DNA of 34,109 nucleotides from assembly GCA_016794165.1 (NCBI GenBank), contig JAEUKV010000314.1, positions 1 to 34,109 on the forward strand. Reading direction: 5' to 3'. The position numbers were made by a program, and so were the translations under genes. This stretch comes from Rhodospirillaceae bacterium. GTDB lineage: Bacteria; Pseudomonadota; Alphaproteobacteria; Dongiales; Dongiaceae. Of the stretch, positions 12,721 through 34,109 are shown in pieces. The stretch's first letter is position 1, and the number at the start of each line of letters is the position of its first letter. The notes beneath the pieces were generated by a model that saw only the letters and a list, made by a program, of their open reading frames with translations, made no database searches and was not told the origin of the DNA.

Positions 12721-14007
12721 ATGCTGGTCTGGATTGATGCCGCCGCCTGCGGGCGGATCCCCAAGATCTTCGGCCTGACCCTGGTCGAACGACATCTTCA
12801 GGCCCTCAAGCGCGCGCCTGCCCGTCCCGGCCGGATCGTGGTCGATCTGGGCAGCGAGGGGGTGAAGCCGCGCATCGATCCCAGCCTGGAATCGGCCTTC
12901 GCAATCGAATGGCGCCAGGACCCGGGTGACTTCTCCAGCCGCTTGAACCGCTTCCTGAGGGAAGCCGGGGAAGCGCCGCTGCTCCTCCTCGACGGGGCCA
13001 CCCTGCCCGACGCAAGACTGCATGCCGCCCTCGTGGGCCTTGCCGATTCCGTGGCGGTGCTGGCCCCCAAGGCCGCGGAACGGGCCGCCATCATCCGCCT
13101 CGAACCAAAGCGGCTAGCAGGGCGGCAGCTCACTGCCGACGATCTGTTCGACCTGGCGGAAGCGTTGATCGCCGAAACCATCCTGCGTCCCTATGCGCAG
13201 GAGGAATTCGACGGCTTCATCCGCAAGCTGCGGCGGACGATTCCCTATTACCTGTTCCGGGTCGAGACACCGGCCAAGGCCGCCAAGGTCGAGAAATTCA
13301 TGTTCTGGTCGAACTATAAGGGCTCGACCGACGTCTTCACCCGTTACGTCTATCCGCCGCTGGTCTGGATCTCCGTGGGGCCGCTGGCGCGGGCGCGGGT
13401 GCATCCCAATGCCGTCACCATCTTCAGCATCGTCCTCGCGCTGGGTGCCATTCCCCTCTGGGCCATGGGCTGGTTCTGGACCGGCTTCGCCATGGCCTAT
13501 GGCATGAGCGTGCTCGATTCCGTGGATGGCAAGCTGGCGCGCCTCACCTTCACCGATTCCCGCCTTGGCAACTGGCTGGACCATGGTCTCGACATGGTGC
13601 ATCCGCCCTTCTGGTACGTGGCCTGGGCCTATGGCATCGGCCTAGGCACCCTCGGCTGGGGTTCGCCCCTCGGCATCGCCGCCATCCTGGTGGTAGCGTT
13701 TTATGTCATCGACCGGCTGCTGCTGAAGATCTATCCGCGCTTTTTCCAGCGTGCCTTCCACACCCATTCAAAGCTCGACGGCCGCATGCGCAGCTTCATC
13801 GCCCGGCGCAACATCACCCTGCCGATGTTCATCGTCGGTTACGCCCTCGGCTATGCGGTCGAAGCGTTCTACCTGATCGCCGCCTGGCAGATCCTGACCG
13901 CCCTCTATCACGGCGGCCGCACTTTCTGGATCATCGCCATTGAGAAAGCGCATCTCAAGAATGCGCGGCCGACCGATGTCGGCAGCAATCTCAGGCATAT
14001 CGACTGA
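12721..14007 (+). CDS. CDP-alcohol phosphotransferase with degenerate nucleotidyltransferase-like N-terminal domain
   Basis: Integral membrane enzyme expected to move a phospho-alcohol from a CDP-activated donor to an acceptor, or the reverse arrangement. The full family signature D-x2-DG-x2-AR-x8-G-x3-D-x3-D is present (Asp266, Asp269, Gly270, Ala273, Arg274, Gly283, Asp287, Asp291). About 190 residues before the membrane domain form a soluble region resembling a sugar-nucleotidyltransferase fold (FGLTLVERHLQAL, LLLLDGATLPD), but without the glycine-rich pyrophosphorylase loop. I chose ATG at 12721: the frame is open from 12682, but a plausible -10 (TATGAC, 12681-12686) covers that codon, and 12721 still gives the whole domain. 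It is a paralogue of the gene at 29689-30798. A hairpin follows the stop codon. Confidence 0.87.
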   Translation: MLVWIDAAACGRIPKIFGLTLVERHLQALKRAPARPGRIVVDLGSEGVKPRIDPSLESAFAIEWRQDPGDFSSRLNRFLREAGEAPLLLLDGATLPDARLHAALVGLADSVAVLAPKAAERAAIIRLEPKRLAGRQLTADDLFDLAEALIAETILRPYAQEEFDGFIRKLRRTIPYYLFRVETPAKAAKVEKFMFWSNYKGSTDVFTRYVYPPLVWISVGPLARARVHPNAVTIFSIVLALGAIPLWAMGWFWTGFAMAYGMSVLDSVDGKLARLTFTDSRLGNWLDHGLDMVHPPFWYVAWAYGIGLGTLGWGSPLGIAAILVVAFYVIDRLLLKIYPRFFQRAFHTHSKLDGRMRSFIARRNITLPMFIVGYALGYAVEAFYLIAAWQILTALYHGGRTFWIIAIEKAHLKNARPTDVGSNLRHID

Positions 14008-19801: not shown

Positions 19802-20500
19802 TTACTGCCTGTTCGCTTCGTCGGCCACCGGCCTGTCGATCGCTGCCTGAATGGCATCGGCAAGGATAGCGGTTGTGCCGCCCGGCCGCGCGCCAGCCGC
19901 CGCCACCGCTTGAGTGGCAAACCTTCGATCGATATGGGTAATCCGCCCCGAAACGCTTGGCAACTCAAGTATGTGAGCGGCTGCCAGCCGGTGCGTCCCA
20001 CGACGAATATGGAAGATCTCGCCGTCCGCCCCGATGCCGAAGCAGATCTCGTCGGCACCGTCGTAGCGATAGCCGTCCCGCTGCAAGGAGCGATAGAGCT
20101 CAAGATACGTCCGGTAGTAGTCGGCAATCCGCTCCTCGCTGTCAAACACCTGACCGCGTCCGGTAACCGGTCGCCCGGCTTCCCAACTGGCTTTCAGCCA
20201 GCGGTAAAGCCGCGTCGCAGCCATGTTCTCGCCATGCCTGGCGACGTCGAGCATGTCAAAATAAGTATAGAGATCCCGGACATCCTGCTTGGGCATCTGG
20301 TCGAGACCCTGGATCAGGAATCCCTCCTTGATCGTGGCTGCGGCCCGGGGATCGAGCTTGCGTCGGACCCGTTGCGGCGCCACCCGGACCGCGAGCGCCG
20401 GGCCGAGCGCAAGGGCTGCGGCGCGCCGATCTTTCCAGACCGGATTGCCAAGACCGGGCCAAAGCCGAAGCGCCGCCGGAACCGCCCAGTCGGGAATCAT
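19802..20500 (-). CDS. ParB-like-domain protein of unknown role
   Basis: A 232-residue cytosolic protein. The C-terminal part contains GEIFHIRRGTHRLAAAH (about residues 160-176), which resembles the ParB/sulfiredoxin-like N-terminal fold in which a GxHR-type motif binds nucleotide. The N-terminal half is basic, and a central region rich in Tyr and acidic residues (VFDSEERIADYYRTYLELYR) is probably helical. No DNA-binding helix-turn-helix of true ParB is seen, so partitioning is unlikely. Comparable small ParB-like proteins exist as nucleotide-dependent kinases and as orphan genes in glycan clusters. It starts 36 bp after the 663-residue gene and ends 12 bp before the exporter, so it is probably cotranscribed with both. 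Function unknown. Confidence 0.6.
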   Translation of the reverse strand: MIPDWAVPAALRLWPGLGNPVWKDRRAAALALGPALAVRVAPQRVRRKLDPRAAATIKEGFLIQGLDQMPKQDVRDLYTYFDMLDVARHGENMAATRLYRWLKASWEAGRPVTGRGQVFDSEERIADYYRTYLELYRSLQRDGYRYDGADEICFGIGADGEIFHIRRGTHRLAAAHILELPSVSGRITHIDRRFATQAVAAAGARPGGTTAILADAIQAAIDRPVADEANRQ

Positions 20501-20536: not shown

Positions 20537-22528
20537 TCAATAGCCCCAGAGATGCTGCAGGCCCACGGCTCCGTTCGGCGACTGGCCCAGCACATGGGCG
20601 GTCAGGTCGGCATCGGCCGACTTCACCTGCAGGGCTGCGATGCCGCTGGGGCCGACATGCCGCGCAAGGTCCGGCACCACATCGTCCAGCCACACGATCT
20701 CCGCGCCGAAGGCCGGCAGGGTGAGGAAATGGCTGAGCCGCACGCCGTCATGGTTGATGGCCGCGATCTCCACCCGCGCCACCATGTCGTATTTAAGGTT
20801 GCCGCTGGCATTGGCGACGAAGACGCCAGTGCGGAAACCGCCCTTGGTACGCACGCGGCCGATCACGTTGGTGCGCCCCATGATGCCGATGGAGGGGTGC
20901 AGCCAATGCGGCAGGGTCGGAATGTCGGCTCCGACATTGCGCCAGGAGGACTGGAACTCGGTGAAGTCCTGATCGCCGGTGACGCGGTGCCGCACCGCCA
21001 TGTCGGAAGTGGTGACAAGTCGCTGCGGCGCCAATCCGATCTTGAGGTGATCGGGGCAGACCAGCGCCATGGTCACTTCCGCCTTGCGCGGATGCGACCA
21101 CCCGGCCAGCACGTCGTCGATATAGGCCGGGCCGATGAAGTCCTTGCGATAGCGGAACTCGCCGACGCAGCCGCCGGCGCGATCGTAAAAGCGCAGCAAG
21201 TAATCGTCGAAGGGTGGGTTCGAGGCGTCGAAGTTGAAGCCAAAGGACAGCGCGCTGTCGGGCGACGTCACCGGCACGCAGCAGGGATGAATCATGAAAC
21301 CGGCGTCGATCGCCTTCTCGACGATGGCGCGCTCCTCCGCCGTGAACAGGATATCGTCGCGATTGTCCACGCCGACGCGGCACAGGTGATTGGCGGCGAT
21401 CGACCCCATCTTTCCCGGCACCTGGGAGAAACCCTCATCCAGCGCATACCAGAAGGACGTGCCATAGCCGGCATAGGAGGCTGCGAAATAGGTGCGTTCG
21501 GTCGACGGTGCACCCGCGCGCTTGAAATGCACTTCTTCCACCGGGCGCGTGCGCGATCGCTTGAGGTGGGTCTTGCCGGCGCCTGTCCCGATCACGACCT
21601 CGTCGTTGCCGCCCATGTCGAGGTCGTAATTGGGCACCGTCATCACGACCTCACCGTTGCGCACGACGGAATCGATCAGGCGGAAGGGCTGGATCTTGTC
21701 GGGGTTCTTGAAGAACTGGTGCGAGCCGTGGATGATCGTGAAGCTGTCCTTCCAGAACACGTCGCCGCAGACTCGAAAGCGGTAATGACGCCCGCGGGTC
21801 AGATGCGGATGTGCCACGAACACTTTCATGCACACCGCACCCTTGCGCTCAGGCATCAGGGATTTGAGGTTGAGGTTGACCGACTGGCTCGGCCCCAGCA
21901 CCAGATAGGAGCGCCGCGTCTCCCCCTCGGCGATGATCTCGAAGCGGAACTGCAGGGGGTCCTTGATGCCGAAGAATTCTTCGAAATGGTTGAAGGCGAG
22001 CGCGTCGACATCCTCGATCTCCAGCGGCACCGCCGCCGTGCCGGCACAGAATTCCCAGTTCTGGCCGACCCAGTGCACCGGTTTGGTCGGTGCATGGGCA
22101 TGCATCATGCGCAGACTGTAGCGGAATTTGGTGGCAACGTCGTTGCCGCCCACCACCACGGCGTCGCAATCGGCAACCGAGGCGGCCGTCACCGGTTTGG
22201 CACCCTTCGGCTGATCCTGGAAGATATCGGTCGAGATCCACTGGGTCGCGATATCGCCCGACTCGGCGCGGAAGGCCTGGAAGAAGGTTTCGTCGCCATG
22301 CACCGCGACCTTGCGGACCCCATCCGCTACCAGCAGGCGCAGGACATCGGCGATGGATTGACTGATCCGGGTCTTGGAATCCGCCTTGCCACCAGCTGAA
22401 GGGTGCGTGCCCGCCTTGAATTTTTGCTTCTGCTGCTTGGCCTTAGGCAATAACCAGTCAAATATGCCAGCGACACCGCCAGAGGCTGTGCGATCACGCT
22501 GCGAGAGCTCCACATCCGAGGTCTTCAT
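20537..22528 (-). CDS. Unrecognised 663-residue protein with a Rossmann-like N-terminal region
   Basis: I do not recognise this family. Visible parts: a charged, low-complexity N-terminus to about residue 50; a Rossmann-like segment at about 50-145 (VADGVRKVAVHGDETFF, then ADCDAVVVGGNDVATKF) of the kind that binds a nucleotide or sits in glycosyl-/methyltransferase proteins; and a long beta-rich remainder with many Trp, His and Phe residues (HPHLTRGRHYRFRVCGD, YFAASYAGYGTSFWY, MIHPCCVPVTSPDS, TAHVLGQSPNGAVGLQHLW at the end). No signal peptide or membrane helix is seen. ATG at 22528 has AGGAAAG about eight bases upstream, and TAGAAT at 22567-22562 on the minus strand is a possible -10. First gene of a unit with the ParB-like protein and an ABC exporter; divergent from the sphingolipid ligase. 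Confidence 0.8.
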   Translation of the reverse strand: MKTSDVELSQRDRTASGGVAGIFDWLLPKAKQQKQKFKAGTHPSAGGKADSKTRISQSIADVLRLLVADGVRKVAVHGDETFFQAFRAESGDIATQWISTDIFQDQPKGAKPVTAASVADCDAVVVGGNDVATKFRYSLRMMHAHAPTKPVHWVGQNWEFCAGTAAVPLEIEDVDALAFNHFEEFFGIKDPLQFRFEIIAEGETRRSYLVLGPSQSVNLNLKSLMPERKGAVCMKVFVAHPHLTRGRHYRFRVCGDVFWKDSFTIIHGSHQFFKNPDKIQPFRLIDSVVRNGEVVMTVPNYDLDMGGNDEVVIGTGAGKTHLKRSRTRPVEEVHFKRAGAPSTERTYFAASYAGYGTSFWYALDEGFSQVPGKMGSIAANHLCRVGVDNRDDILFTAEERAIVEKAIDAGFMIHPCCVPVTSPDSALSFGFNFDASNPPFDDYLLRFYDRAGGCVGEFRYRKDFIGPAYIDDVLAGWSHPRKAEVTMALVCPDHLKIGLAPQRLVTTSDMAVRHRVTGDQDFTEFQSSWRNVGADIPTLPHWLHPSIGIMGRTNVIGRVRTKGGFRTGVFVANASGNLKYDMVARVEIAAINHDGVRLSHFLTLPAFGAEIVWLDDVVPDLARHVGPSGIAALQVKSADADLTAHVLGQSPNGAVGLQHLWGY

Positions 22529-22723: not shown

Positions 22724-24463
22724 ATGACCCTTAGACCGACCGCAACCACGAATACCAGCCTGAAACATCGCCGCAGCACCTTCGAGACGCTGTGGGAGGC
22801 GCTCGACTATGCCGCCAGGGGCGATACCGGGCTGAACTTCTATTCCGCCAAGGGCGAGCTCGCCACGGTGCTCAGCTATACCGAGTTGCGAGCGCGGGCG
22901 CACGACCTTGCCCGACGTTTCGCGGCGCTCGGGCTCGAGCGCGGCGCGCGGGTCGTGCTGGTGGCCGATACCGACCCCGATTTCGTGATCGCCTTTTTTG
23001 CCACCCAATATGCCGGGCTGCTCCCGGTGCCCGTGGCCATTCCCACCAGCCTGGGGGGACGCGAGGCCTATGTCGCCCAGTTGCGCCAGCAACTGTCCGG
23101 CTGCGAGGCCAGCATAGCCCTCGCCCCGGAATCGCTGGTGGGTTTCCTGCGCGAGGCTGCAGAGGGCCTCGATCATGTGAAGATCACCGGGTCCCTGGCC
23201 GAATTCGCCGCAATGCCGGTCAAGGACGCGGATCTGGCGCCGTTCGCCGCCAACGAGCCCAGCTATCTCCAATACTCCTCCGGCTCGACGCGCTTTCCCA
23301 AGGGCATCGAAATTCATCAGCGGGTGCTGATGGCCAACGCCCATGCCATCACGCATTTCGGCCTCGACATCATGGAGATCGACCGCTGTGCCTCCTGGCT
23401 GCCGTTCTATCACGACATGGGATTGGTCGGCTTCCTGCTGGTGCCGGCGACCGGCCAGGTCTCGGTCGACTATATCGCGACGCGCGATTTTGCGCGCCGG
23501 CCGCTTACCTGGCTGAAACTCATATCGGACAATCGCGGCACCCTCGCCTATTCGCCGAGCTTCGGCTACGAGCTCTGCGTCAAGCGGATGCGCGGCGGGA
23601 CGGAATTTAGCGGCGATCTATCCAGCTGGCGGGCGGCGGGGATCGGCGGCGATATGGTCCAGGACCCGGTCCTGCAGCGGTTCAGCGAGACCTTTGCCCC
23701 GCTGGGCTTCCGTCACGAGGTCTTCGTCCCCAGCTACGGCATGGCGGAAACCACGCTGGCGATGAGTTTCGCGCCTTTGGAGCGCGCTTACCGGGTCGAC
23801 AACATCGACCGCGCCGGGCTGGAGAACCAGCTGGCGCAACCCGCGCCGGCCGGCAAGAATGCACGCGCCATGGTCGCTTGCGGTCCGGCACTGCCCGGCC
23901 ACACCTTTGAGGTCCGCGACGAGAATGGCGCGGTGCTGCCGGAGCGGCGGATCGGCCGGATCTTCTTCAGGGGTCCCAGCGTCATGGCCGGTTACTTCCG
24001 GCAACCCGAGCTCACCGCGGAAGCCTTGGCGCCCGATGGCTGGCTCGATACCGGCGATCTCGGCTACCTGCTCGACGGCGAGATCGTGATTACCGGCCGC
24101 GCCAAGGACCTCATTATCATCAACGGCCGCAACATCTGGCCGCAGGATCTGGAATGGACCGCAGAGACGCTGCCGGATCTGCGCCGCGGCGACACTGCCG
24201 CCATCGCGGTCCTCGGCCCAGACGATCAGGAGCAGGTCGTGATGCTGGTCCAATGCCGGACCGGCGACCTCGCCTTGCGCACCAAGCTGAAGCAGGACGT
24301 GGCGGCGCTGCTGCAGCGCGCGATGTCGGTCGAGGCGCGGGTCGAGCTGGTGCCGCCCAAGGGCCTGCCGCAGACATCCTCCGGCAAGCTTTCCCGGGCC
24401 AAGGCCAAGGCCAATTATCTCGCCGGACTCTATGCCGACGCCGAGATCGGCATCAGTGCCTGA
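22724..24463 (+). CDS. Fatty acyl-AMP ligase / acyl-ACP synthetase of the sphingolipid locus
   Basis: Adenylate-forming enzyme of 579 residues, expected to activate a fatty acid as acyl-AMP and load it onto the acyl carrier protein encoded downstream. The P-loop SSGSTRFPKG is at 185-194, GWLDTGDLG at 439-447, the hinge and C-terminal entry GRAKDLIIINGRNIWPQDLE at 458-477 (GRNxxPxDxE is typical of fatty acyl-AMP ligases rather than acyl-CoA ligases), and the catalytic lysine Lys555 in SSGKLSR. I chose ATG at 22724: the frame is open from 22577, but that would add 49 residues without family resemblance and would cover the likely promoter. It is followed 18 bp later by the CerR-like gene. In Caulobacter the equivalent gene lies beside cerR, acp and spt and is needed for ceramide synthesis. 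Confidence 0.88.
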   Translation: MTLRPTATTNTSLKHRRSTFETLWEALDYAARGDTGLNFYSAKGELATVLSYTELRARAHDLARRFAALGLERGARVVLVADTDPDFVIAFFATQYAGLLPVPVAIPTSLGGREAYVAQLRQQLSGCEASIALAPESLVGFLREAAEGLDHVKITGSLAEFAAMPVKDADLAPFAANEPSYLQYSSGSTRFPKGIEIHQRVLMANAHAITHFGLDIMEIDRCASWLPFYHDMGLVGFLLVPATGQVSVDYIATRDFARRPLTWLKLISDNRGTLAYSPSFGYELCVKRMRGGTEFSGDLSSWRAAGIGGDMVQDPVLQRFSETFAPLGFRHEVFVPSYGMAETTLAMSFAPLERAYRVDNIDRAGLENQLAQPAPAGKNARAMVACGPALPGHTFEVRDENGAVLPERRIGRIFFRGPSVMAGYFRQPELTAEALAPDGWLDTGDLGYLLDGEIVITGRAKDLIIINGRNIWPQDLEWTAETLPDLRRGDTAAIAVLGPDDQEQVVMLVQCRTGDLALRTKLKQDVAALLQRAMSVEARVELVPPKGLPQTSSGKLSRAKAKANYLAGLYADAEIGISA

Positions 24464-24481
24464 CACCCATCGCCAGGGCCG

Positions 24482-25432
24482 ATGATGGCCGGCCTTGTCG
24501 CCATCACCGGTGCCAGCGGATTTGTCGGTGCCCGCATCGCGCAGGCCCTCGCCCGCAGCGGCTGGCGGGTCCGGCTTCTGGCAAGGCGGATGCCTCAGGC
24601 GGCGCTGATGCCCGACCACGGTATCGAGGTGGTACTGGGCGATCTCGATGACAGGTCGAGCCTGGAGCGGCTGGTAAGGGGCTGCGAGGCGATCGTCCAC
24701 AGCGCCGGTCTGGTCCGCGCCCTCTCTGCCGCCGATTTCTTCGCGGCCAATGATATCGGAACCGAACACCTGCTGCTGGCCGCGGCCCGGGCCGCACCGG
24801 CCGCGCGCCTCGTACATATCTCCTCGCTGGCCGCCCGCGCCCCAGAACTGTCGCCCTACGCCGCCAGCAAGCGCGCCGCCGAAGCCAAGGTCGCGGCACT
24901 GGCGGGGGCGCGGGACTGGATCGCGCTGCGACCGCCCGCTGTCTATGGCCCCGGCGATCTGGAGCTCTTGCCGCTGTTCAAGGCGGCCAAGCTCGGCCTG
25001 GTCGCCTATCCCGCCGCGCCGCAGGCTCGGGTTTCGGTGCTGCATGTGGCGGATCTCGCCGCGGCGGTCGTTGCTCTCCTGACAGCGCCAATTTGGGAAG
25101 CGCAAGTGGTGGCCCTGGATGACGGGCATGTCGGCGGGCACACCTGGCCCGACATCCTCGCGGCCCTGGGCATGGCATTCGGCCGGCGCCCCTTGGCCTG
25201 CCGCCTGCCGCGGTCGGTGCTGCTGCCGATTGCCGGTGGTGCCAGCCTGATCGCCCGCCTGCGCAACCGCCCCCAGGTCCTCTCCTGGCACAAGGTGCCA
25301 GAGCTCTATCACCCGGACTGGGCGATCGATGGGCCGGCCCTATCTGGCATGGTTAACTGGGTGCCCCGTTTCGACCTCGCAAGCGGCTTTGCCGAGACGG
25401 TGGCCTGGTATCGGACGCAGTCTCTTCTTTAA
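24482..25432 (+). CDS. cerR: NAD(P)-dependent epimerase/dehydratase-type reductase, CerR-like
   Basis: Extended short-chain dehydrogenase of 316 residues. The Rossmann motif GASGFVG is at 10-16, catalytic Tyr126 and Lys130 occur in YAASK, and HISSLAARAPE (about 112-122) supplies the active-site serine. In the Caulobacter ceramide pathway a protein of this family in the same position (CerR) reduces the 3-keto group, doing the job of eukaryotic 3-ketosphinganine reductase with an unrelated enzyme. The assignment here rests on family plus exact gene order (ligase, reductase, ACP, SPT). Two ATG codons in tandem (24482, 24485) are possible starts. No signal peptide. Confidence 0.82.
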   Translation: MMAGLVAITGASGFVGARIAQALARSGWRVRLLARRMPQAALMPDHGIEVVLGDLDDRSSLERLVRGCEAIVHSAGLVRALSAADFFAANDIGTEHLLLAAARAAPAARLVHISSLAARAPELSPYAASKRAAEAKVAALAGARDWIALRPPAVYGPGDLELLPLFKAAKLGLVAYPAAPQARVSVLHVADLAAAVVALLTAPIWEAQVVALDDGHVGGHTWPDILAALGMAFGRRPLACRLPRSVLLPIAGGASLIARLRNRPQVLSWHKVPELYHPDWAIDGPALSGMVNWVPRFDLASGFAETVAWYRTQSLL

Positions 25433-25455
25433 TGTGAACAAATTCCGTTAACCGA

Positions 25456-25518
25456 TTGAAATCAGGCAAATGTTACATTCAGTAACAATTTGTCATTTAA
25501 CCTCAGGCACAAAATTTA
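25456..25518 (+). promoter_or_regulatory. AT-rich promoter/operator region upstream of acp-spt
   Basis: The 185-bp gap between cerR and acp is strikingly AT-rich for this genome. It holds a perfect inverted repeat, TGTTAC-ATTCA-GTAACA, at 25471-25487, extended on both sides by near-matching CAAA and ATTTG. A possible -35 TTGTCA lies at 25490-25495 with AATTTA 17 bases on at 25513-25518. The repeat is of the size bound by dimeric regulators such as TetR or GntR proteins. It implies that acp-spt can be controlled separately from the two upstream genes. Confidence 0.5.
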
Positions 25519-25617
25519 CGACAACTTGCCATGGCACCCGCGGCGCGAGTCGTGCTGTGCCTAAGGGGTTATCCGAATTAACAGATTCGCATTCAGAACA
25601 AGAATTGGTTTGGCATC

Positions 25618-25896
25618 GTGACGGCGCAGGCAGCCCAGCAAAATACCACTCTCGCATTCGATCACGTGGTGGCCGAAATTGCCGTCGCGCTGCAGCCGTT
25701 CAAGAAGGGGGAGGTCGCGATCACCGCGACCACGGACATCGCGCAGGATCTCAACATGGATTCCCTTGCCGTGATGGATCTGTTGATGGAGCTCGAGGAC
25801 AAGTTCGACGTCTCGATCCCGCTCAACATGGTGCCGGAAATTGCCACGGTGGGGCAGCTTGCCCAGACCGTCATTGAGTCGAAGAGGGGGGCGTAA
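25618..25896 (+). CDS. Acyl carrier protein dedicated to sphingolipid synthesis
   Basis: A 92-residue acyl carrier protein. The phosphopantetheine attachment site is Ser49 in DLNMDSLAVMDLL, and the acidic helix LMELEDKFDVSIPLN that docks partner enzymes follows directly. It should carry the acyl chain as a thioester to serine palmitoyltransferase, replacing acyl-CoA, as shown for the Caulobacter and Sphingomonas-type systems with an ACP gene next to spt. Start is GTG at 25618, with a weak ribosome binding site. The stop TAA is one base before the spt ATG, so translation of the two is very likely coupled; the SPT ribosome binding site (GAGGGGGG) lies inside this gene's 3' end. Confidence 0.93.
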   Translation: MTAQAAQQNTTLAFDHVVAEIAVALQPFKKGEVAITATTDIAQDLNMDSLAVMDLLMELEDKFDVSIPLNMVPEIATVGQLAQTVIESKRGA

Positions 25897-25897
25897 C

Positions 25898-27118
25898 ATG
25901 GGTCTGATGGACCGTTTCAAGGCGCAGCGCGAGTTGCATGCCGCCGTGAAGACCTGCGGGGCCGATCCGTTCGGCGTGAAGATGGACCAGATTCTCTCCG
26001 CCACCGAGGCGTTGATCGAGGGTCGTCCGACCATCCTGTGCGGTTCCAACAATTATCTCGGCTTCACCTTCGACGCCGATTGCATCGAAGCCGCAAAGCA
26101 GACGCTGGACGAATGCGGCACCGGCACCACCGGTTCGCGCATCGCCAATGGCTCCTATCACGATCACAAGGCGCTGGAGCAGGATCTCGCCGATTTCTAC
26201 GGCAAGCAGCACTGCATGGTGTTCACCACCGGCTACCAGGCCAATCTCGGCGCCATTTCGACCCTCGCCGGGCCCAACGATTTCCTGATCATCGACGCCG
26301 ACAGCCACGCCAGCATCTACGATGCCTGCAAGTTGGGCTCGGCCACCGTGATCCGCTTCAAGCACAATGATCCGGCCGATCTCGACCGCCGCCTCGGCCG
26401 TCTCGCGAACGAGCCGGGCAACAAGATCGTCGTGGTCGAGGGCATCTACTCGATGCTGGGCGACCATGCGCCGCTGAAGGAATTCGTTGCCGTCAGCAAG
26501 AAGCACAACGCCTACATCCTGGTCGACGAAGCGCATTCGATGGGCGTCATGGGCGCCACCGGCCAGGGCGTCGTGGAGCACGACGGCGTGCTCGATCAGG
26601 TCGATTTCATCACCGGCACCTTCTCCAAGAGCATGGGCGCCATCGGCGGCTTCCTGGTTTCGAACATGGAGGATTTCGACCTCCTCCGCGTCGCCTGCCG
26701 CCCCTACATGTTTACCGCCTCGTTGCCGCCTGCGACTGTCGCCTCGGTGCGGAAGTCGCTGGCAAAGCTGCGCGCCAATCCGGGCCTGATGGCCAAGCTG
26801 TGGGCCAATGTCGACACGCTCTATGACGGCGTGGAAGCTGCCGGTTTCTCGGTCGGGAAGCAAAAGGGCCCGGTGGTTGCGGTTCATATCAACGACCCGG
26901 CACTGGCCGCGCGCGCCTGGCATGCACTGTTGCAGAACGGCGTCTATGTGAATCTGGCCCTGCCGCCGGCAACGCCTTCCGGCACCGCCCTGCTCCGCTG
27001 TTCGGTATCGGCCGCGCATTCGACCGAACAGTTGCAGCATGTGGTCGCGATCCTCGCCAGGATCGGCCGCGAACTCGGCATCCTCGGCACGCCGGCCCAC
27101 GCCGTGGCGGCCGAATAA
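25898..27118 (+). CDS. spt: Serine palmitoyltransferase
   Basis: PLP enzyme of the alpha-oxoamine synthase family; condenses L-serine with an activated acyl chain to give the 3-keto long-chain base, the first committed step of sphingolipid synthesis. Length is 406 residues. Lys244 in GTFSKSMGAIGGF is the PLP lysine, Asp210 and His213 lie in VDEAHSMG, and His137 in DSHASIYD stacks on the cofactor. Spacing among these residues matches the soluble Sphingomonas enzyme almost exactly, and FSKSMGAIGG favours SPT over the related KBL and AONS enzymes. The reading frame is open upstream to 25841, inside acp, but ATG 25898 with its GAGGGGGG site is clearly the start. A strong terminator follows. Confidence 0.94.
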   Translation: MGLMDRFKAQRELHAAVKTCGADPFGVKMDQILSATEALIEGRPTILCGSNNYLGFTFDADCIEAAKQTLDECGTGTTGSRIANGSYHDHKALEQDLADFYGKQHCMVFTTGYQANLGAISTLAGPNDFLIIDADSHASIYDACKLGSATVIRFKHNDPADLDRRLGRLANEPGNKIVVVEGIYSMLGDHAPLKEFVAVSKKHNAYILVDEAHSMGVMGATGQGVVEHDGVLDQVDFITGTFSKSMGAIGGFLVSNMEDFDLLRVACRPYMFTASLPPATVASVRKSLAKLRANPGLMAKLWANVDTLYDGVEAAGFSVGKQKGPVVAVHINDPALAARAWHALLQNGVYVNLALPPATPSGTALLRCSVSAAHSTEQLQHVVAILARIGRELGILGTPAHAVAAE

Positions 27119-27154
27119 GTCCGGCCGACTGCCTCGCCGACAGACCTGTCCATC

Positions 27155-27187
27155 AGGGCCAGTGCCTGCGCACTGGCCCTAATTCTT
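27155..27187 (+). terminator. Intrinsic terminator after spt
   Basis: A perfect 11-bp stem, AGGGCCAGTGC paired with GCACTGGCCCT, closes a 4-base loop (27155-27180) and is followed by AATTCTT. It lies 36 bp after the spt stop and also separates spt from the convergent DinB-fold gene. Confidence 0.85.
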
Positions 27188-27195
27188 TGCGCGGC

Positions 27196-27768
27196 TCAGC
27201 CGGATCCAAAATCGCGCCAGAGCGCTTCCTCCTCCCAGCCAAGCTCCTCAAGTTCGGGCGCACGAAAGCGCGCATCGCCCGCCATGAAGTACTCGTCAAG
27301 CTGGGGCGGTTTCACCGTCGTCCCGGCAAGCATCGCATGTGCCTGGCCCCGATGGTGAATCTGGTGCTCGAAGAGGTGCAGCAAGGTCCGATCGACCCGG
27401 TCGACCTGAACATGAGTGCCACGATGCATGCGGACACCACCATTGAGGCCCTGCGCATCGAGATTCCGGCAGAGATCGATCAACCGTCGATCGACGGCAG
27501 CCTGCGCGGCCTTGAGATCGCTGCAGTTCGGAAAGGGAATCTCGTTCTGCCACGCCGCCGGCCCGAGCGTGCCACCCTCCAGCGCGTCCACATAGAACCA
27601 GTCGACCGTGAGATTGTGGTTGAGAGTCGCCTGGAGCGAGGGAAAGAAACTGGTCCGGTGTGCCGCGAATTCCTCGGCAGTCAGCTTGGCGCAGGCATTG
27701 AGCAGCCGCAGATTGGCCCAGGCATTGTTGCGCGCCATGGCAACGAAATAGTGCGTGGCATCGGTCAT
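27196..27768 (-). CDS. DinB-fold metal-binding protein
   Basis: A 190-residue four-helix-bundle protein of the DinB/YfiT family. Metal ligands are visible as His51 in LNHNL and the HQIHHRGQAH segment (His135, His139) near the third helix, the usual layout of the family. Members act in bacillithiol/mycothiol-type thiol transfer, as metal-dependent hydrolases, or have no known role. ATG at 27768 has GGAGGGG immediately upstream and is preferred to the longer open frame from 27909, which runs into the upstream gene. It begins 20 bp after the Tam41-like gene and is the last gene of the phospho-headgroup operon. Whether it acts on the lipid is unknown. Confidence 0.82.
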   Translation of the reverse strand: MTDATHYFVAMARNNAWANLRLLNACAKLTAEEFAAHRTSFFPSLQATLNHNLTVDWFYVDALEGGTLGPAAWQNEIPFPNCSDLKAAQAAVDRRLIDLCRNLDAQGLNGGVRMHRGTHVQVDRVDRTLLHLFEHQIHHRGQAHAMLAGTTVKPPQLDEYFMAGDARFRAPELEELGWEEEALWRDFGSG

Positions 27769-27788
27769 ACCCCCTCCCCCGCGGCGGC

Positions 27789-28700
27789 CTAGCGAAAGGC
27801 GCCGCGTCGATAGAGTTTCCAGGCGAGCCCCGGTGCCGCCAGCAAGGGGTGCCGGCGCTGCCAGTCGCTCACCGGCATGACGACGCCGGAATGCCGCCGC
27901 ACCTTCCACATAACGTAATCGACCGCGCCGTCGAAGGTGAAGGCCGCCTTCACCAGGCGCAGGTAGTTGAGGCTCTTGCCGATCCAGCGCCGCCGGCGCC
28001 AGACATTGCCGCGGGGCAGGCCGGTTGCGTTGATCTCAGGCCAGATCAGGCGCGCCAGTTGTTGATAGCGGACCCGGTCGGCATTCACGATGGCGATCGC
28101 CCGGTCGCCGGATTCCGAACGCAGCTCGGCGGCGTAGGTTTCGCGAAAGCCGCGTTCCCAGACGGCCAGCGCGTCAATCTCCCGCGGCGTGGTGCCGCCG
28201 CTCTCGCTCGGCCAGGCATGGAGCAGCATGGTCCGGCAGGCATTGGCGAGCGCGGCTGCCAGGGCCCTGCGGGTCGTCGTGTCGCGGGCCCAGATCAACC
28301 GGGCGGGCTGGCAGAATCGCGCCCAGATCGAGACATTACTGGCACGCGGCGAGCAGCCGGCGACGAACTGGTCCAGCGAGACGACGGCATATTTGGCGCG
28401 CAGTTGCCGCCCCTGCCAGGGCAGTTCCACATAAAACACATTAGGCGGCAGCAATCGGTTGGCCCAGGCCATCAGGCGGCTTTCATAGGCGGCCGCGTAG
28501 TCATCAACGATCACGTAGAAGTCGAGCAGCGAGTCCGCAAGTGCCTGGTCCCGCTGGCGCAGGCACGATCCATAAAACAGCACCGCCACCGCCGCTGCGC
28601 CATGCCGTTCGCGGCAATGCTGCGCCATCGCCTGTGCCGCCGGGCCGACGGCGGTCTCAAGCTCATTGGCGATCAATGTGGCGACTGCGTCGGCGGCCAT
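27789..28700 (-). CDS. Tam41-like nucleotidyltransferase, putative lipid cytidylyltransferase
   Basis: A 303-residue protein resembling mitochondrial Tam41/Mmp37, the CDP-diacylglycerol synthase with a nucleotidyltransferase fold. Features in order: LFYGSCLRQ (residues 41-49, the Gly-Ser of the fold), LLDFYVIVDDY (58-68, acidic metal-binding strand), LPPNVFYVEL (84-93), AKYAVVSLDQF (102-112, matching the KYGVVS segment of Tam41) and IWARFCQPARLIW (125-137, matching the W..xxGRLxKPV segment). No membrane segment is seen; Tam41 is peripheral. It lies between the lipid kinase and the DinB gene, 15 bp after the kinase stop. The likely reaction is CTP plus a lipid phosphate giving a CDP-lipid, with ceramide 1-phosphate the obvious candidate here. 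Family recognition is from memory of the Tam41 pattern. Confidence 0.68.
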   Translation of the reverse strand: MAADAVATLIANELETAVGPAAQAMAQHCRERHGAAAVAVLFYGSCLRQRDQALADSLLDFYVIVDDYAAAYESRLMAWANRLLPPNVFYVELPWQGRQLRAKYAVVSLDQFVAGCSPRASNVSIWARFCQPARLIWARDTTTRRALAAALANACRTMLLHAWPSESGGTTPREIDALAVWERGFRETYAAELRSESGDRAIAIVNADRVRYQQLARLIWPEINATGLPRGNVWRRRRWIGKSLNYLRLVKAAFTFDGAVDYVMWKVRRHSGVVMPVSDWQRRHPLLAAPGLAWKLYRRGAFR

Positions 28701-28715
28701 GTCCCATCCGTTCCG

Positions 28716-29678
28716 TCAGAACCGGTGGAATCTTACTACAGGTCCCGCGGTCACGACGATGCGCCCGTGCGCCGGCGCCTCGAATTTCTCGCCATCGATC
28801 ATCACCGGCGAATGCATCTCGAGTTCCAGCCGTTCCATCCGGCGGCTGAGATAGCCCGCTTGCGCCATCCAGGGACGCGGTCGGCCGCGCAGCACCGAGA
28901 TCGCGGCCCGGGCGAAGCGGCGCGGCGGCGAGTCGATGGTGGTCAGCTTCAGTCGCCCCGGTCCGGTGCCCCAGAACGGCGCCACCCCCGGCATCAGGGA
29001 TTCGAGGGTCGAGGCCAGGAACATGAAACAGTCCCGCCGCTCCGCCCGGCCGTCGATGGTGAGGCCGATTGTCTCGCCGCGAAAGCCGGAGCGCGGCCCG
29101 GGGCCGAACAGCATGATCTTCAGGATCGACCAGGCAATACCGAGCTTGGCGGCGAAGGTCTGCTTGGCACCCAGCGAATGAATGTCACGACGCACGATCT
29201 GGGTACCCTGGTAGAAGCCGACGCCACCGATCAAGAAGCCGCGCTCGATCGGCCGGCCATCGGCGAAGTCGACCGAGAGAACCGGTCGTTCGATCACTTC
29301 GCCGCTCTCCCCCGCTTCCGCGCGCAGCACCAGGCGCCGCAGGCCGGTCGCCGGCAGGCCCGGCTGGCCGACTTCATGGGCGATGACATTGGTCATGCCA
29401 GCGGAAAGGACACTCAGGCACGGCATGACAGCGAAAGGTCTATCGTTGATCAGTGCCGATACCGCGGCCAGCACCGTGCCATCGCCGCCGCTGATGACCA
29501 GATGCGTCACCTCGGCTGCCGCCATCACGCGCAGACAATCCGGCAGTTCGGTAATCTCGTCGAAGCTGCGGTGCATGACCTGCGGATGTGTCGCCAGCAG
29601 GGCGTGAATCTCGCGCATGGAGAGCTTGTTGCGCTTGCTGTGCGCATTGCTGATGACGCCGATGCGGACTGGATTCAT
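28716..29678 (-). CDS. Diacylglycerol-kinase-family lipid kinase, putative ceramide kinase (CpgB-like)
   Basis: A 320-residue kinase of the DAGK catalytic family. The nucleotide-binding GGDGT is at 64-68 in VISGGDGTV, followed by PCLSVLSAGMTNV, which corresponds to the GTGNDFAR-type loop of the family though degenerate, and near the C-terminus MIDGEKF (DGE motif). It should phosphorylate a lipid hydroxyl with ATP on the cytosolic membrane face. Beside spt and a CDP-alcohol phosphotransferase, the best guess is ceramide kinase: the Caulobacter ceramide kinase CpgB is of this family and lies beside spt. ATG at 29678 is 10 bp after the stop of the phosphotransferase gene. Diacylglycerol cannot be excluded as substrate. 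Confidence 0.8.
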   Translation of the reverse strand: MNPVRIGVISNAHSKRNKLSMREIHALLATHPQVMHRSFDEITELPDCLRVMAAAEVTHLVISGGDGTVLAAVSALINDRPFAVMPCLSVLSAGMTNVIAHEVGQPGLPATGLRRLVLRAEAGESGEVIERPVLSVDFADGRPIERGFLIGGVGFYQGTQIVRRDIHSLGAKQTFAAKLGIAWSILKIMLFGPGPRSGFRGETIGLTIDGRAERRDCFMFLASTLESLMPGVAPFWGTGPGRLKLTTIDSPPRRFARAAISVLRGRPRPWMAQAGYLSRRMERLELEMHSPVMIDGEKFEAPAHGRIVVTAGPVVRFHRF

Positions 29679-29688
29679 GCCAACGCCA

Positions 29689-30798
29689 TCATGCGTGCTC
29701 GGTCAACCAGGAAACCGGGTTGCGCCCCTGCGCCCGCCTGGCAAAGGCCTGGGCTATGCGCAGGCAATGGAACAGGAAGCTGAGGATGGTCCACCAGGCG
29801 ACAACCTCGAACCCGGTATCTGGCACCCCGAGCAATACGGCGATGCTGAGAATGATGAGATTGGGGTTTCGCCGTGCCGTGATCAGGCGGAACCAGGAAT
29901 CGAGTGGGCGCCAGATATGCATCTCGATGCCGAACTGCCAGATGAACAACCCCTCCTGACCGCGGCCGAGGATGTAGCCGGCGATGATGACCCAGAACAC
30001 CCACGGCTCCACTGCCGCCGCGCCGCCCAGCCCGACATACCACGCCCAGTACCAGAACGGCGGATGGATGAGATCGGTGCCGTGATCGAACACGTCGCCC
30101 CATTTGCTGGAGGTCAGCGTCACCCGCGCCAGCTTGCCGTCGACGGTATCGAGGAAACACATCGCCCAGGCGGCGATCAGGCCGAGGCCGAACGCCCCCA
30201 CGGCAAAGGCCCAGGTCGCCAGCAGCACGCAGATGAAACTGGCCAGCGTCACCATATTGGGCGAGATGCCGTGTCGGGCACAGAAGCGCGTAACGCCGAG
30301 CGCTGGCAGTGGCCAGACATACTTGGTCACCAGATCGGTGACGCCCTTGTAGGACTCCAGATACATGCGCCGCTCGATCTCGGCCGCCGGCAGGGAATCG
30401 AGCGCAAGGAGATAGGGAGCGCCCTTGCGGCGCAGTGCCTTGTCGTAACTTGAGGCCAGTCCCGCCGGATCGACACGGATGATGCCCGCGCCGTCCAGAG
30501 CGGCGTCCTCGCCCGAAATGGCCGCCTGCATCGCCGCCATTTGCGCCGGATCGGATGCGTGGCCGGCATAAGGCCGCCCGGCCACATCGGTCAGCAATCG
30601 ACCCGGCTGCGCCAGCAACGACTTCACCAGATTTTCGTGAAAAACCGCGTCGGCGCGAAAGATCAGGCCACCCTTTCCCGCAGCGCCGGCCCGCGTCAGG
30701 GCGCGCTCCAGTCGCTGGCGCGGCGTCAGCCCCCAGATACTGGTCGTCGACTCGTTCAGGAAAATCGGACCGGCCCAACTATCCGTTTGATCTGTCAT
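29689..30798 (-). CDS. CDP-alcohol phosphotransferase with nucleotidyltransferase-like N-terminus, putative sphingolipid headgroup enzyme
   Basis: A 369-residue membrane enzyme carrying the complete signature Asp217-x2-Asp220-Gly-x2-Ala224-Arg225-x8-Gly234-x3-Asp238-x3-Asp242 in FLDTVDGKLARVT and the following segment. Residues 1 to about 135 form a soluble domain (WGLTPRQRLERALTRAG, GLIFRADAVF) recalling the nucleotidyltransferase half of fused inositol-phosphate cytidylyltransferase/phosphotransferases, but without the GxGTR loop, so it is probably not catalytic. After it come several membrane helices. First gene of the minus-strand operon with kinase, Tam41-like and DinB genes; it should join a phospho-headgroup to a lipid through a CDP intermediate. 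It is a paralogue of 12721-14007. No good ribosome binding site precedes ATG 30798, and TAATAA just upstream could be a -10 giving a very short leader. Confidence 0.85.
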   Translation of the reverse strand: MTDQTDSWAGPIFLNESTTSIWGLTPRQRLERALTRAGAAGKGGLIFRADAVFHENLVKSLLAQPGRLLTDVAGRPYAGHASDPAQMAAMQAAISGEDAALDGAGIIRVDPAGLASSYDKALRRKGAPYLLALDSLPAAEIERRMYLESYKGVTDLVTKYVWPLPALGVTRFCARHGISPNMVTLASFICVLLATWAFAVGAFGLGLIAAWAMCFLDTVDGKLARVTLTSSKWGDVFDHGTDLIHPPFWYWAWYVGLGGAAAVEPWVFWVIIAGYILGRGQEGLFIWQFGIEMHIWRPLDSWFRLITARRNPNLIILSIAVLLGVPDTGFEVVAWWTILSFLFHCLRIAQAFARRAQGRNPVSWLTEHA

Positions 30799-30961
30799 GT
30801 GTTTTTATTATTGCCCGCGGGAAATCCTGGCCTTGTTAAACCCGAACGCCCCATGCCGTCCACCCAAATCAACGGCGACTCCGGCGGCGATCAGGGCCGG
30901 TTCATACTTGCTTGACCAATCGGATTGATCGGCCCAGAAAGGCCCGGCCGGAAAGGGCATC

Positions 30962-31966
30962 ATGTTCGAGAGGTTATCGTTGTCGACCAGCTTCACCCTG
31001 GCGCATTTCAGCGACCCACATCTGGGCCCCCTGCCGCCCGCAGGGTGGCGGAGTCTGGCTAACAAACGCCTGTCAGGTTTTCTGTCCTGGACCCGCAACC
31101 GCGTCAAGATCCACCGCTCGGACATCCTCGCCCTGCTGACCGAAGACCTCGCCCGCCAGCCGGTCGACCATGTGGCGATCACCGGCGATCTCGTGAACAT
31201 CTCCCTGCCCGGGGAGTTCAGTGCCGCGGCGGCCTGGCTGAGAACGATTGGCACGCCCGACCGGGTCACGGTAATACCCGGCAATCACGACGCCTATGTG
31301 AACGTCGCCTGGTCGCAGTCCCTGGCGCTCTGGGCCGATTACATGCGCGGTGCACGCACGCCGACCGGACCCGAAACGCTGCCCGGCAGCATGACCGACT
31401 TTCCCTTCATCCGCCGCCTGGGACCGATCGCCCTGGTGGGAACCTCGACCGCGCTGCCGATGCCGGTTTTCGTGGCCGCCGGCCGCCTCGGCCCGGCGCA
31501 ATGCGACCGGCTGCGCGCGCAGCTGAAGCAACTGGGAACCGAGGGACTGTTCCGGGTGGTGCTCATTCACCATCCCCCATTCGGCGGCGGCGCCTACAAA
31601 CGCAAGGCACTGCTTGACGCGTCGAAATTTCAGGCGGTCCTGGCCGAGGCCGGCGCGGAAATGGTCATCCACGGTCACACCCATGTGTCGGGCCTGGCAC
31701 GCGCCACGACACCTGCCGGCACCATCCCGGTCATCGGCGTACCTTCCGCCTCGGCGATCGCCGCCGGGCACAAGGACCCGGCGCGCTATCATCTCTATCG
31801 CATCGAAAGGACCGCCGATTCCTGGTCCCTCGACGTGGAAATCCGCGGCCTCAGCGCCGCCGCGGACGGCTTCGAGCGCCAAGGCAGTATGGCCCTGACG
31901 ATTCCCCTGCTATCATTGCCACCGCGAGCAACGCCGCCGGGGACGGCGACGGCGGCGGTCGCATAG
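30962..31966 (+). CDS. Calcineurin-like metallophosphoesterase
   Basis: A 334-residue dimetal phosphoesterase with all five family motifs: Asp18-x-His20 in SDPHL, Gly-Asp76 in ITGDLV, GNHD at 107-110, His203/His204 in LIHHPP and GHTH at 238-241. No signal peptide, so cytosolic. The family includes cAMP phosphodiesterase CpdA, the lipid A enzyme LpxH and other lipid pyrophosphatases; motifs alone do not separate these. GGAAAGG lies about nine bases upstream of ATG 30962. It is divergent from the sphingolipid headgroup operon and 63 bp upstream of lptF on the same strand, so a substrate among lipid A or sphingolipid phosphates is attractive but unproven. Confidence 0.88.
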   Translation: MFERLSLSTSFTLAHFSDPHLGPLPPAGWRSLANKRLSGFLSWTRNRVKIHRSDILALLTEDLARQPVDHVAITGDLVNISLPGEFSAAAAWLRTIGTPDRVTVIPGNHDAYVNVAWSQSLALWADYMRGARTPTGPETLPGSMTDFPFIRRLGPIALVGTSTALPMPVFVAAGRLGPAQCDRLRAQLKQLGTEGLFRVVLIHHPPFGGGAYKRKALLDASKFQAVLAEAGAEMVIHGHTHVSGLARATTPAGTIPVIGVPSASAIAAGHKDPARYHLYRIERTADSWSLDVEIRGLSAAADGFERQGSMALTIPLLSLPPRATPPGTATAAVA

Positions 31967-32029: not shown

Positions 32030-33238
32030 ATGAGATTCCTCCGCATCGACATCTACATCCTGCAACGGGTCGCCTTTCCGCTCATCGCCGCGGTCGGCGT
32101 CGCGATGGCTGCCCTGCTGCTGGAACGCCTCATCCGCCTGCTCGACCTCTTCGCCAATCGCGGCGGCCCGATCAACATCATCTTCAAGATGCTCGCCAAT
32201 CTGGTCCCGCACTATCTGGGCATCGCGCTTCCCGCAGCCCTCTTCGTCGGCGTGCTGTTTGCCGCCATGCGACTATCAGGCGACAGCGAGCTCGATGCGA
32301 TGCGCGCCAGCGGTATCTCGCTGCGCCGCCTGATGTATCCGGTCATGGCGCTCACGATCATCCTGGTTATGCTGAGTGGCTATGTGATCGGTTTCCTGCA
32401 ACCCCATACGCGCTGGGCCTACCGCGCCCTGGTGCATCTGGTGGTCGAGACGGCCTGGGATTCCGCCATCGAGCGCGGTGCCTTCTTCAGTGGCTTCGGC
32501 GGCAAGACCATACTCATCGGCGACATCTCGGACGGCGGGCGCAAGCTCTCGCAGATTTTTGTCAAGGAAGTAGATGAAGACGGTCGTGACGTGGTGATCA
32601 CGGCTGAGGACGGACAGCTCGACCGCAGCGGCGATCTTTCCCTGGAGCTCACACTGCGGAACGGGGTGCGCACGGAGATCCTGCCAGGCACCGAGGAAGC
32701 TCGTTCGGTCGAGTTCAATCAGCTCAAGCTCCCGATGGAATCGGCCGCACCCGAGCCCTTTCGCAGCCGAGGCGAAAAGGAGAGCGAACTCGATCTGCTG
32801 GAACTGTTCGTCGCCTATCTGAAGCCGCCGCCCGAGCTGGACATCGAGGACATCCAGGCAGAGATCAACAGTCGCCTCGTGCGCATCCTCTCGATCCTGT
32901 TCCTGCCCCTGCTCGCCATGCCGGTCGGTATCTCGTCGCGCCGCACGTCGAAGGGCATGCGGCTGATGGTCGGGGTCATGTTCCTGGTCGGATACTTCCA
33001 GATCCTGCAATTCGGCCGCGACATGATCAGCAGCGAAATTGCCGGGCCATTTCTGGTCCTGTGGGTGCCGTTCCTGATCTATGCCGCCGGCACCTCCTGG
33101 CTGTTCTATCTTGCGAATTCGAAACCTGGCGCCGATCCTCTGGCACATGTATTCGAGGCACTCACCGATGCCTCGACCTGGGTCTCCGGCCAATTGCGCC
33201 GACGCTTCGGCCGGACGCGCGCGGAGCCAGCCGAATGA
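32030..33238 (+). CDS. lptF: LPS export ABC transporter permease LptF
   Basis: Inner-membrane permease of the LptB2FG complex, which extracts lipopolysaccharide and passes it to the LptC-LptA bridge. The 402 residues have the expected layout: N-terminal helices (RVAFPLIAAVGVAMAALLLE onward), a third helix with GVLFAAMRLSGDSELDAMRASG (the conserved coupling region), a periplasmic beta-jellyroll domain of about 130 residues, and three C-terminal helices starting near LVRILSILFLPLLAMPVG. The stop overlaps the lptG start as ATGA at 33235-33238, indicating translational coupling. Confidence 0.93.
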   Translation: MRFLRIDIYILQRVAFPLIAAVGVAMAALLLERLIRLLDLFANRGGPINIIFKMLANLVPHYLGIALPAALFVGVLFAAMRLSGDSELDAMRASGISLRRLMYPVMALTIILVMLSGYVIGFLQPHTRWAYRALVHLVVETAWDSAIERGAFFSGFGGKTILIGDISDGGRKLSQIFVKEVDEDGRDVVITAEDGQLDRSGDLSLELTLRNGVRTEILPGTEEARSVEFNQLKLPMESAAPEPFRSRGEKESELDLLELFVAYLKPPPELDIEDIQAEINSRLVRILSILFLPLLAMPVGISSRRTSKGMRLMVGVMFLVGYFQILQFGRDMISSEIAGPFLVLWVPFLIYAAGTSWLFYLANSKPGADPLAHVFEALTDASTWVSGQLRRRFGRTRAEPAE

Positions 33239-34109
33239 GTACCTTTGGCCGCTATGTGCTGCGCAGTTTCCTCTGGCAGTTCGTGCTCTTCCTGGTCGGG
33301 TTCACCGCCCTGCTGCAGCTGTTCGACCTGCTCAACAACAGCGCCGATATTCTCGCGGATCATGGCGGCCGGGTCAGCGCCGTGATCGAGTACGCCGTCC
33401 TGCGCCTGCCGGAGATCGCCTCGTTCCTGGTGCCCTTTGTCGTGCTGATGAGCACCCTCGTGACACTGGGGCGCATGGAACGGGCCAATGAGATCATGGC
33501 CTACAAGGCCGCCGGCGCCCCCTACTTCACCGTGCTCTGGGCCTTTCTGCCCGCCGTCGGCATCGTCGCGGCGCTGCATTTCCTGGTGGCGGACCGCCTG
33601 GTTCCCGTCTCGATCCAGACCCTGATTTCCCTGGACCTCAAGGCCGAACGCACCAAGACCAAGAACGAGGCCAAGGACGATCCACTTTTCCTGCAGGACG
33701 GTAACACGGTGATCGAAGCTGCGGTGATCGGCCTCGACGGCAATGTGCTCAGTCATGTCCGGGTCTACGAACGCGACGACATCGGCAATATCGTCAGGCA
33801 GACATTCGCAGACGAGGTCCAATACGACGTCAAGCTGGAACAATGGCACATGTCGGACGTCTGGACCACGCGTGTGGTCAAGCGCGAGCCGGCTGAGACG
33901 GAATATGTTGCAAGGATGGTCTGGGATACGCGACTGACTCCGGCAGAGTTTTCCGATCTGGTCGAACGCCCACAAGCGATGACGATCGACAAGATCTACG
34001 GATTTGTATCGTCGACCCAGGTGGGTGTGCGGCCGACCTATTTCTACGAGACCTGGCTGCAGAAACGCATCGCGCTTCCGGTCAGTTCCATCCTGATGAT
34101 TCTCCTGGC
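33235..34109 (+). CDS. lptG: LPS export ABC transporter permease LptG (3' part beyond window)
   Basis: Second permease of the LptB2FG lipopolysaccharide extractor. 291 codons are visible from ATG 33235 to the window edge. The start FGRYVLRSFLWQFVLFLVG is the first membrane helix, followed by the helix pair around PEIASFLVPFVVLMSTLVTLG and the coupling segment RMERANEIMAYKAAG. The periplasmic beta-jellyroll follows, and the window ends at the start of the C-terminal helices (ALPVSSILMILL). It overlaps lptF by four bases. Confidence 0.93.
   Translation, partial: MSTFGRYVLRSFLWQFVLFLVGFTALLQLFDLLNNSADILADHGGRVSAVIEYAVLRLPEIASFLVPFVVLMSTLVTLGRMERANEIMAYKAAGAPYFTVLWAFLPAVGIVAALHFLVADRLVPVSIQTLISLDLKAERTKTKNEAKDDPLFLQDGNTVIEAAVIGLDGNVLSHVRVYERDDIGNIVRQTFADEVQYDVKLEQWHMSDVWTTRVVKREPAETEYVARMVWDTRLTPAEFSDLVERPQAMTIDKIYGFVSSTQVGVRPTYFYETWLQKRIALPVSSILMILL

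Follow-up and report, generated by a model that had tools for sequence, protein, structure and literature searches.

Predicted ceramide phosphoglycerate locus in Dongia

A chromosomal locus for the biosynthesis and export of ceramide phosphoglycerate (CPG) lipids, orthologous to Caulobacter CC_1152-CC_1168, was predicted in the window analyzed here with a probability of about 0.88. The window is the whole 34,109-nucleotide contig JAEUKV010000314.1 (C222) of the source genome (G000, GenBank assembly GCA_016794165.1), a 3.74-Mb assembly of 332 contigs that is 98.7% complete. The genes make it very probable that the organism produces an anionic sphingolipid. The closest named relatives of its cytidine diphosphate (CDP)-alcohol phosphotransferase CpgA were found in Dongia mobilis and other Dongia records (72-74% identity), and the organism was therefore taken to be a Dongia species. 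GcrA, an alphaproteobacterial regulator, is also encoded in the genome.

The pathway itself is known from earlier work on Caulobacter and several of its relatives. New are its occurrence in Dongia, the linkage of CpgA to the CDP-glycerate synthase CpgD, the wider distribution of CC_1153- and CC_1158-type genes, the fold assignments, and two unexplained CpgA-like transferases, designated CDP2 and CDP3. In a 2020 taxonomic survey of type strains, alphaproteobacterial sphingolipids were apparently restricted to Sphingomonadales (PMC7179689); the window locus, in contrast, predicts sphingolipids in Dongia. Comparison across genomes also sheds light on steps of the Caulobacter pathway that are still open.

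Gene order and orthology with Caulobacter

A preliminary description of positions 22724 to 30798 had placed ceramide backbone genes on the plus strand, facing a phospho-headgroup operon on the minus strand. All eight genes it named are open frames with the coordinates given here, and their assigned families were borne out. The plus strand carries aasR (22724-24463, orthologue of CC_1165), cerR (24482-25432, CC_1164), acpR (25618-25896, CC_1163) and spt (25898-27118, CC_1162), together and, as had been claimed, in the order of the Caulobacter ceramide cluster. The minus strand carries cpgA (29689-30798, CC_1159), cpgB (28716-29678, CC_1160), cpgC (27789-28700, CC_1161) and a DinB-superfamily gene (27196-27768). 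With orthologues of CC_1165 to CC_1159 in the same layout, the interpretation as a sphingolipid locus was supported. The facing headgroup operon is present as described, but it holds no novelty: it is the cpgCBA operon itself, in the Caulobacter layout.

The gene-by-gene comparison was made with a locus from the C. vibrioides group (L075, genome G478, one 4.14-Mb contig), which matches a record named Caulobacter vibrioides (L190) at 97-98% identity. Caulobacteraceae genomes were reached through a search with the holdfast protein HfaA, and their spt regions were extracted; the holdfast protein was not found in any CpgC carrier of the first draw of class genomes. The order at L075 is cpgD, 1153-like gene, cerS, lptG2, lptF2, phosphoesterase, cpgA, cpgB, cpgC, spt, acpR, cerR, aasR, flippase and lptC2-like gene, the same as the published order of CC_1152-CC_1168 (PMC11324152). 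Each gene of the window locus except dinB has a syntenic orthologue there, in the same order, on the matching strand and in the same convergent layout.

Dongia and the Caulobacter crescentus locus for CPG and for CPG2, the product with a second phosphoglycerate, thus share the convergent spt-cpgC pair and the divergent cpgA-phosphoesterase pair followed by lptF2-lptG2. Unlike in Caulobacter, cpgD of the source genome sits away from the locus on another contig, CDP2 and a fatty-acid hydroxylase gene lie between lptG2 and cerS, a third transferase gene (CDP3) is found about 9 kb before aasR, dinB is inserted, and the locus does not include the flippase gene and lptC2. Chance is far from explaining the gene order, since loci with this convergent layout are found across Alpha-, Beta- and Gammaproteobacteria. 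Other Rhodospirillales, Caulobacterales, Nevskiaceae and some of the Burkholderiales have the same gene set. The sample of named loci (n = 80) is skewed to Dongia-like CpgA.

Ending the locus at 30798, as initially proposed, proved too early. A metallophosphoesterase gene (30962-31966, plus strand; CC_1158 orthologue; PF00149, 7e-12) diverges from cpgA. Its product has the motifs DxH, GNHD and GHxH and 39% identity to the protein at the same position in a C. vibrioides metagenome-assembled genome (MAG), and the gene is present at 71 of the 80 named loci. It is followed by lptF2 (32030-33238, plus strand; CC_1156 orthologue; PF03739, 4e-69), a second copy of the lipopolysaccharide-export permease gene. 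LptF2 is 35% identical to the MAG protein at the same position, and its role is presumed to be sphingolipid export. Next, lptG2 (33235-34109, plus strand; CC_1155 orthologue) is broken off by the contig end; the 291 codons within the window are 72% identical to residues 1-291 of lptG2 at L040 (tblastn). Downstream of lptG2, four other Dongia genomes have CDP2, the fatty-acid hydroxylase gene, cerS and a CC_1153-like gene. The same set was found at the end of contig C118 (L135) of the source genome, which therefore very likely continues the window locus. It comprises the bacterial ceramide synthase gene cerS (L135:5635-6768, 48% identity to CerS of Caulobacter segnis), the adjoining PF04116 hydroxylase gene (L135:6784-7563), a candidate ceramide hydroxylase, CDP2 (L135:7696-8874), and the CC_1153-like gene (C118:18850-19614, 41% to C. 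segnis). A PF04116 hydroxylase gene was also seen beside cerS at several loci outside Dongia.

The cpgD gene was located on contig C296 (7092-7814, 52% identity to the Caulobacter-group query); Dongia deserti has cpgD at the locus, 83% identical to the source-genome copy. A search of PDB with Dongia CpgD returned distant nucleotidyltransferases only, so the assignment rests on the Caulobacter-group protein. Orthologues of all eleven biosynthesis genes reported for Caulobacter were thereby accounted for in the source genome. The headgroup chemistry had been described as not known; with cpgD present, the headgroup is predictable as CPG and probably CPG2.

Proposed pathway

In the pathway proposed for Dongia, whose steps are all projected from orthology, AasR would load a fatty acid onto AcpR, and serine palmitoyltransferase (SPT) would condense acyl-AcpR with serine. 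CerS and CerR would complete dihydroceramide, which CpgB would phosphorylate to ceramide-1-phosphate. CpgC would activate ceramide-1-phosphate en route to CPG, most naturally as CDP-ceramide. CpgD would make CDP-glycerate, and CpgA would use it to add the second phosphoglycerate of CPG2; LptF2 and LptG2 would presumably move the product outward. For Caulobacter, the activities of AasR/AcpR/SPT, CpgB and CpgD are reported from biochemical work, and a requirement for the other biosynthesis genes from genetics (PMC11324152, PMC12275187, PMC10331486, PMC9386255).

Several points weigh against this pathway. CpgB is only about 30% and CpgC about 37-41% identical to the Caulobacter proteins, which leaves room for drift in substrate. 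Even in Caulobacter, neither CpgC nor CpgA has a demonstrated enzyme activity. With two additional CpgA-like transferases, the final headgroup could be a different one. At the Dongia locus, no orthologue of lptC2 or of the flippase gene (CC_1168 and CC_1166) was found, the rest of the genome not having been searched for them.

Serine palmitoyltransferase and backbone genes

The product of spt scored 656 bits with the SPT equivalog model NF047599 (cut-off 500) and is 58% identical to that of C. segnis. The motifs DSHAS, DEAHS, GTFSKS and LRCS are in place, as are the pyridoxal phosphate lysine, the stacking histidine and the arginine motif when aligned with a solved SPT. KBL, AONS and ALAS belong to the same alpha-oxoamine synthase family, and the KBL and AONS models do match the spt product. 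The gene could on that account be a paralogue of one of these three, which would leave the locus unrelated to sphingolipids. This reading is extremely improbable: the BioF, KBL and ALAS models stayed below their own cut-offs, the solved Sphingomonas-type SPTs in PDB scored 462 bits (best KBL 227, AONS 182), and the neighbors of spt are acpR, cerR, aasR and the ceramide kinase gene. The expectation that the protein would not group with KBL or AONS was thus upheld, the decision being based on model scores and PDB sequence scores.

The other backbone genes agree with SPT. AasR, an acyl-ACP synthetase that would charge the sphingolipid acyl carrier protein (ACP), belongs to fatty acyl-AMP ligase subfamily NF006624 of NCBIfam (805 bits, cut-off 600) and is 53% identical to its counterpart at the C. 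segnis locus and 82% to that of the D. mobilis type strain; the Caulobacter orthologue loads AcpR specifically (PMC9386255). The ceramide reductase CerR is an extended short-chain dehydrogenase/reductase (Epimerase, PF01370, 8e-26) with the motifs GASGFVG and YAASK and 40% identity to C. segnis. The specialized acyl carrier protein gene acpR (PP-binding, PF00550, 3e-10) has a GTG start, encodes the DSL serine motif, and abuts spt, as it does in other Dongia and Caulobacter loci.

Headgroup enzymes CpgA, CpgB and CpgC

The ceramide kinase CpgB was recognized by DAGK_cat (2e-8) and the GGDGT motif, and is 32% identical to the C. vibrioides MAG protein at the same position.

For CpgC, the call as Tam41-like held at the level of fold. 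The AlphaFold model (pLDDT 88.5) had Tam41 structures as its four best Foldseek matches in PDB, including 7ecd, 6ig4 and 6ig2; the match to 7ecd (E 3.8e-7, TM about 0.5) is one at fold level only. The nucleotidyltransferase core of YGS and D60 is invariant, and Tam41_Mmp37 (PF09139) matched 2 of 18 CpgC orthologues (best E 9e-7). The window protein itself had no Pfam match even at E 10, and it is therefore named a Tam41-fold nucleotidyltransferase and not a curated Tam41 member. When the CpgC profile was searched against PDB sequences, nothing useful came up (best E 0.04); only the fold comparison was informative. CpgC shares with Tam41/Mmp37 the predicted fold and the YGS...D core; it differs in sequence (12-14% identity) and in its presumed substrate, ceramide-1-phosphate in place of phosphatidate. 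The modeled fold agrees with an InterPro hint that CC_1161 resembles CDP-diacylglycerol synthase (PMC11324152) and favors activation of ceramide-1-phosphate as the CpgC step. It gives CpgC a concrete, testable chemistry.

CpgA (PF01066) has a complete CDP-OH motif, is 48% identical to the C. vibrioides MAG protein, and groups with Caulobacter CpgA (support 99/93). Its model (pLDDT 81.8) matched AF2299 over the full length (368 columns) in Foldseek, followed by the IPCT-DIPPS fusion of Archaeoglobus. All have an N-terminal cytidylyltransferase-like domain and a CDP-OH membrane domain. In contrast to the archaeal proteins, the N-terminal domain of CpgA apparently lacks the nucleotide-binding loop, as read off alignments, and the cytidylyltransferase is a separate protein, CpgD. 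Since CpgD reportedly resembles inositol-1-phosphate cytidylyltransferase (PMC12275187) and CpgA folds like IPCT-DIPPS, the two resemble the archaeal fusion divided into separate proteins: CpgD would make the CDP-alcohol that CpgA spends.

The fold neighbors of CpgA also include phosphatidylinositol-phosphate synthases, which raises the question of a ceramide lipid with another headgroup, in which CDP-ceramide from CpgC would be joined to inositol phosphate, glycerol phosphate or another alcohol. The nearest NCBIfam models of CpgA are likewise phosphatidylinositol-phosphate and archaetidylinositol-phosphate synthases, and Dongia has three transferases of the CpgA type. The inositol-type match is, however, far under cut-off (42.5 of 180 bits), and CpgA is orthologous to Caulobacter CpgA and strictly co-occurs with the CDP-glycerate synthase CpgD. 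A headgroup other than phosphoglycerate is thus considered unlikely.

Co-occurrence of CpgA and CpgD

The distribution of the headgroup genes was analyzed in a profile panel of 32 CpgC-carrying genomes and a wider sample of 385 alphaproteobacterial genomes. At thresholds of E <= 1e-15 for CpgA and E <= 1e-25 for CpgD, CpgA was present in 24 of the 385 genomes (16 genera) and CpgD in the identical 24, with none discordant. The probability of this coincidence by chance is about 1e-25 with genera taken as independent, an optimistic figure given their relatedness. Among the 32 CpgC carriers, 24 had both proteins and 8 neither. This strict co-occurrence supports the published idea that CDP-glycerate is the CpgA donor, and with it phosphoglycerate as the headgroup.

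The CC_1153-like gene was present in 31 of the 32 CpgC carriers, including 7 of the 8 without CpgA and CpgD, and in five of these 7 its coordinates place it in the spt region. Five loci without CpgA (L043, L044, L045, L056, and L057) also have the phosphoesterase gene. In Caulobacter, mutation of CC_1153 or of CC_1158 reportedly affects CPG2 (PMC11324152). That both types of gene are kept in the absence of CpgA and CpgD argues that they are not only CPG2 genes; they probably act earlier than the CpgA step or in addition to it. Such a role fits the strong accumulation of ceramide reported for the CC_1153 mutant. Confinement of the CC_1153-like gene to the CPG2 branch was rejected as a strict rule, the gene being present in those 7 genomes.

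Loci of the spt/cpgB/cpgC type without CpgA or CpgD were observed at L043, L044, L045, L049, L051, L052, L056, and L057, nearly all of which keep the CC_1153-like gene. In the Caulobacter-type locus, CPG depends on cpgB and cpgC, and CPG2 on cpgA and cpgD. From this gene content, the eight are predicted to make CPG but not CPG2.

Additional CpgA-like transferases

The preliminary description had missed a second CpgA-like transferase gene in the window, the Dongia-specific CDP3 (12721-14007, plus strand; PF01066, 1.5e-7, complete motif). In the CDP-alcohol phosphotransferase tree, in which one row with a wrong frame and a long branch (L110_CDP3) was disregarded, the CDP-OH proteins of the loci form two clades (support 99/93), one of CpgA and one of CDP2/CDP3. 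CDP3 is 54% identical to CDP2 and sister to CDP2 of Dongiaceae and relatives (99/95); each of the five Dongia genomes tested has it. At 16 of the 80 named loci, including those of Reyranella, Ramlibacter, Schlegelella and Panacagrimonas, CDP2 occupies the interval from lptG2 to cerS or to the hydroxylase gene. Both proteins share the motif of AF2299/IPCT-DIPPS and are of similar length, and neither is mentioned in the cited sphingolipid literature.

All 8 CDP2-bearing panel genomes have CpgD, which fits CDP-glycerate as the CDP2 donor but is not proof of it. Tentatively, CDP2 and CDP3 might be further CDP-glycerate-dependent phosphoglycerate transferases, by which Dongia and some other proteobacteria would make a headgroup longer than or differently placed from that of CPG2, or would decorate another acceptor. 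The link of CDP3 to the sphingolipid locus is a putative one. CDP3 directly follows an ELM1-family gene (11426-12625).

At several CDP2 loci (L179, L159, L193, L205, L208 and L220), cpgB is absent between cpgA and cpgC, and a kinase gene is found elsewhere in the genome. CDP2 as a replacement of the ceramide kinase was rejected, as a profile search found the kinase in every CDP2 genome tested that has the cpgB gap.

Terminator and DinB

The one strong terminator noted between the convergent operons (27155-27180, plus strand) is real. It has a perfect GC-rich 11-bp stem, by far the longest in the region, where terminator-like sites are not above chance in number (7 found, 6.1 expected). Four other Dongia genomes have a perfect 10-11-bp stem in this position, with compensated changes and a T-rich tail, and this conservation argues for a genuine terminator; the T-tract in the window is weak (AATTCTTTGC).

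DinB (PF05163, 1e-18) had been counted as a member of the headgroup operon. The gene closes the cpgABC-dinB run, at a distance of about 20 bp from cpgC, and recurs in G037, G263, G340 and L146. Such a position could indicate a function in headgroup synthesis, for example as a metal-dependent transferase of the DinB superfamily. The gene is, however, missing in the D. mobilis type strain (L148), D. deserti (L151), Caulobacter and the remaining named loci, which makes this very doubtful. DinB was rejected as a pathway member because it varies even within Dongia, where most genomes have it but not all, and it is probably a variable passenger.

Intergenic and flanking regions

The gap between cpgA and the phosphoesterase gene (30799-30961) has conserved blocks in five Dongia genomes and is likely a divergent promoter region, possibly with shared promoter DNA. 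Beside aasR, in Dongia and close relatives, lie minus-strand genes for proteins of 663 amino acids (20537-22528) and 232 amino acids (19802-20500), neither of which had a match in Pfam. They are adjoined by genes for two ABC exporters (16269-18137, plus strand, and 18080-19789, minus strand).

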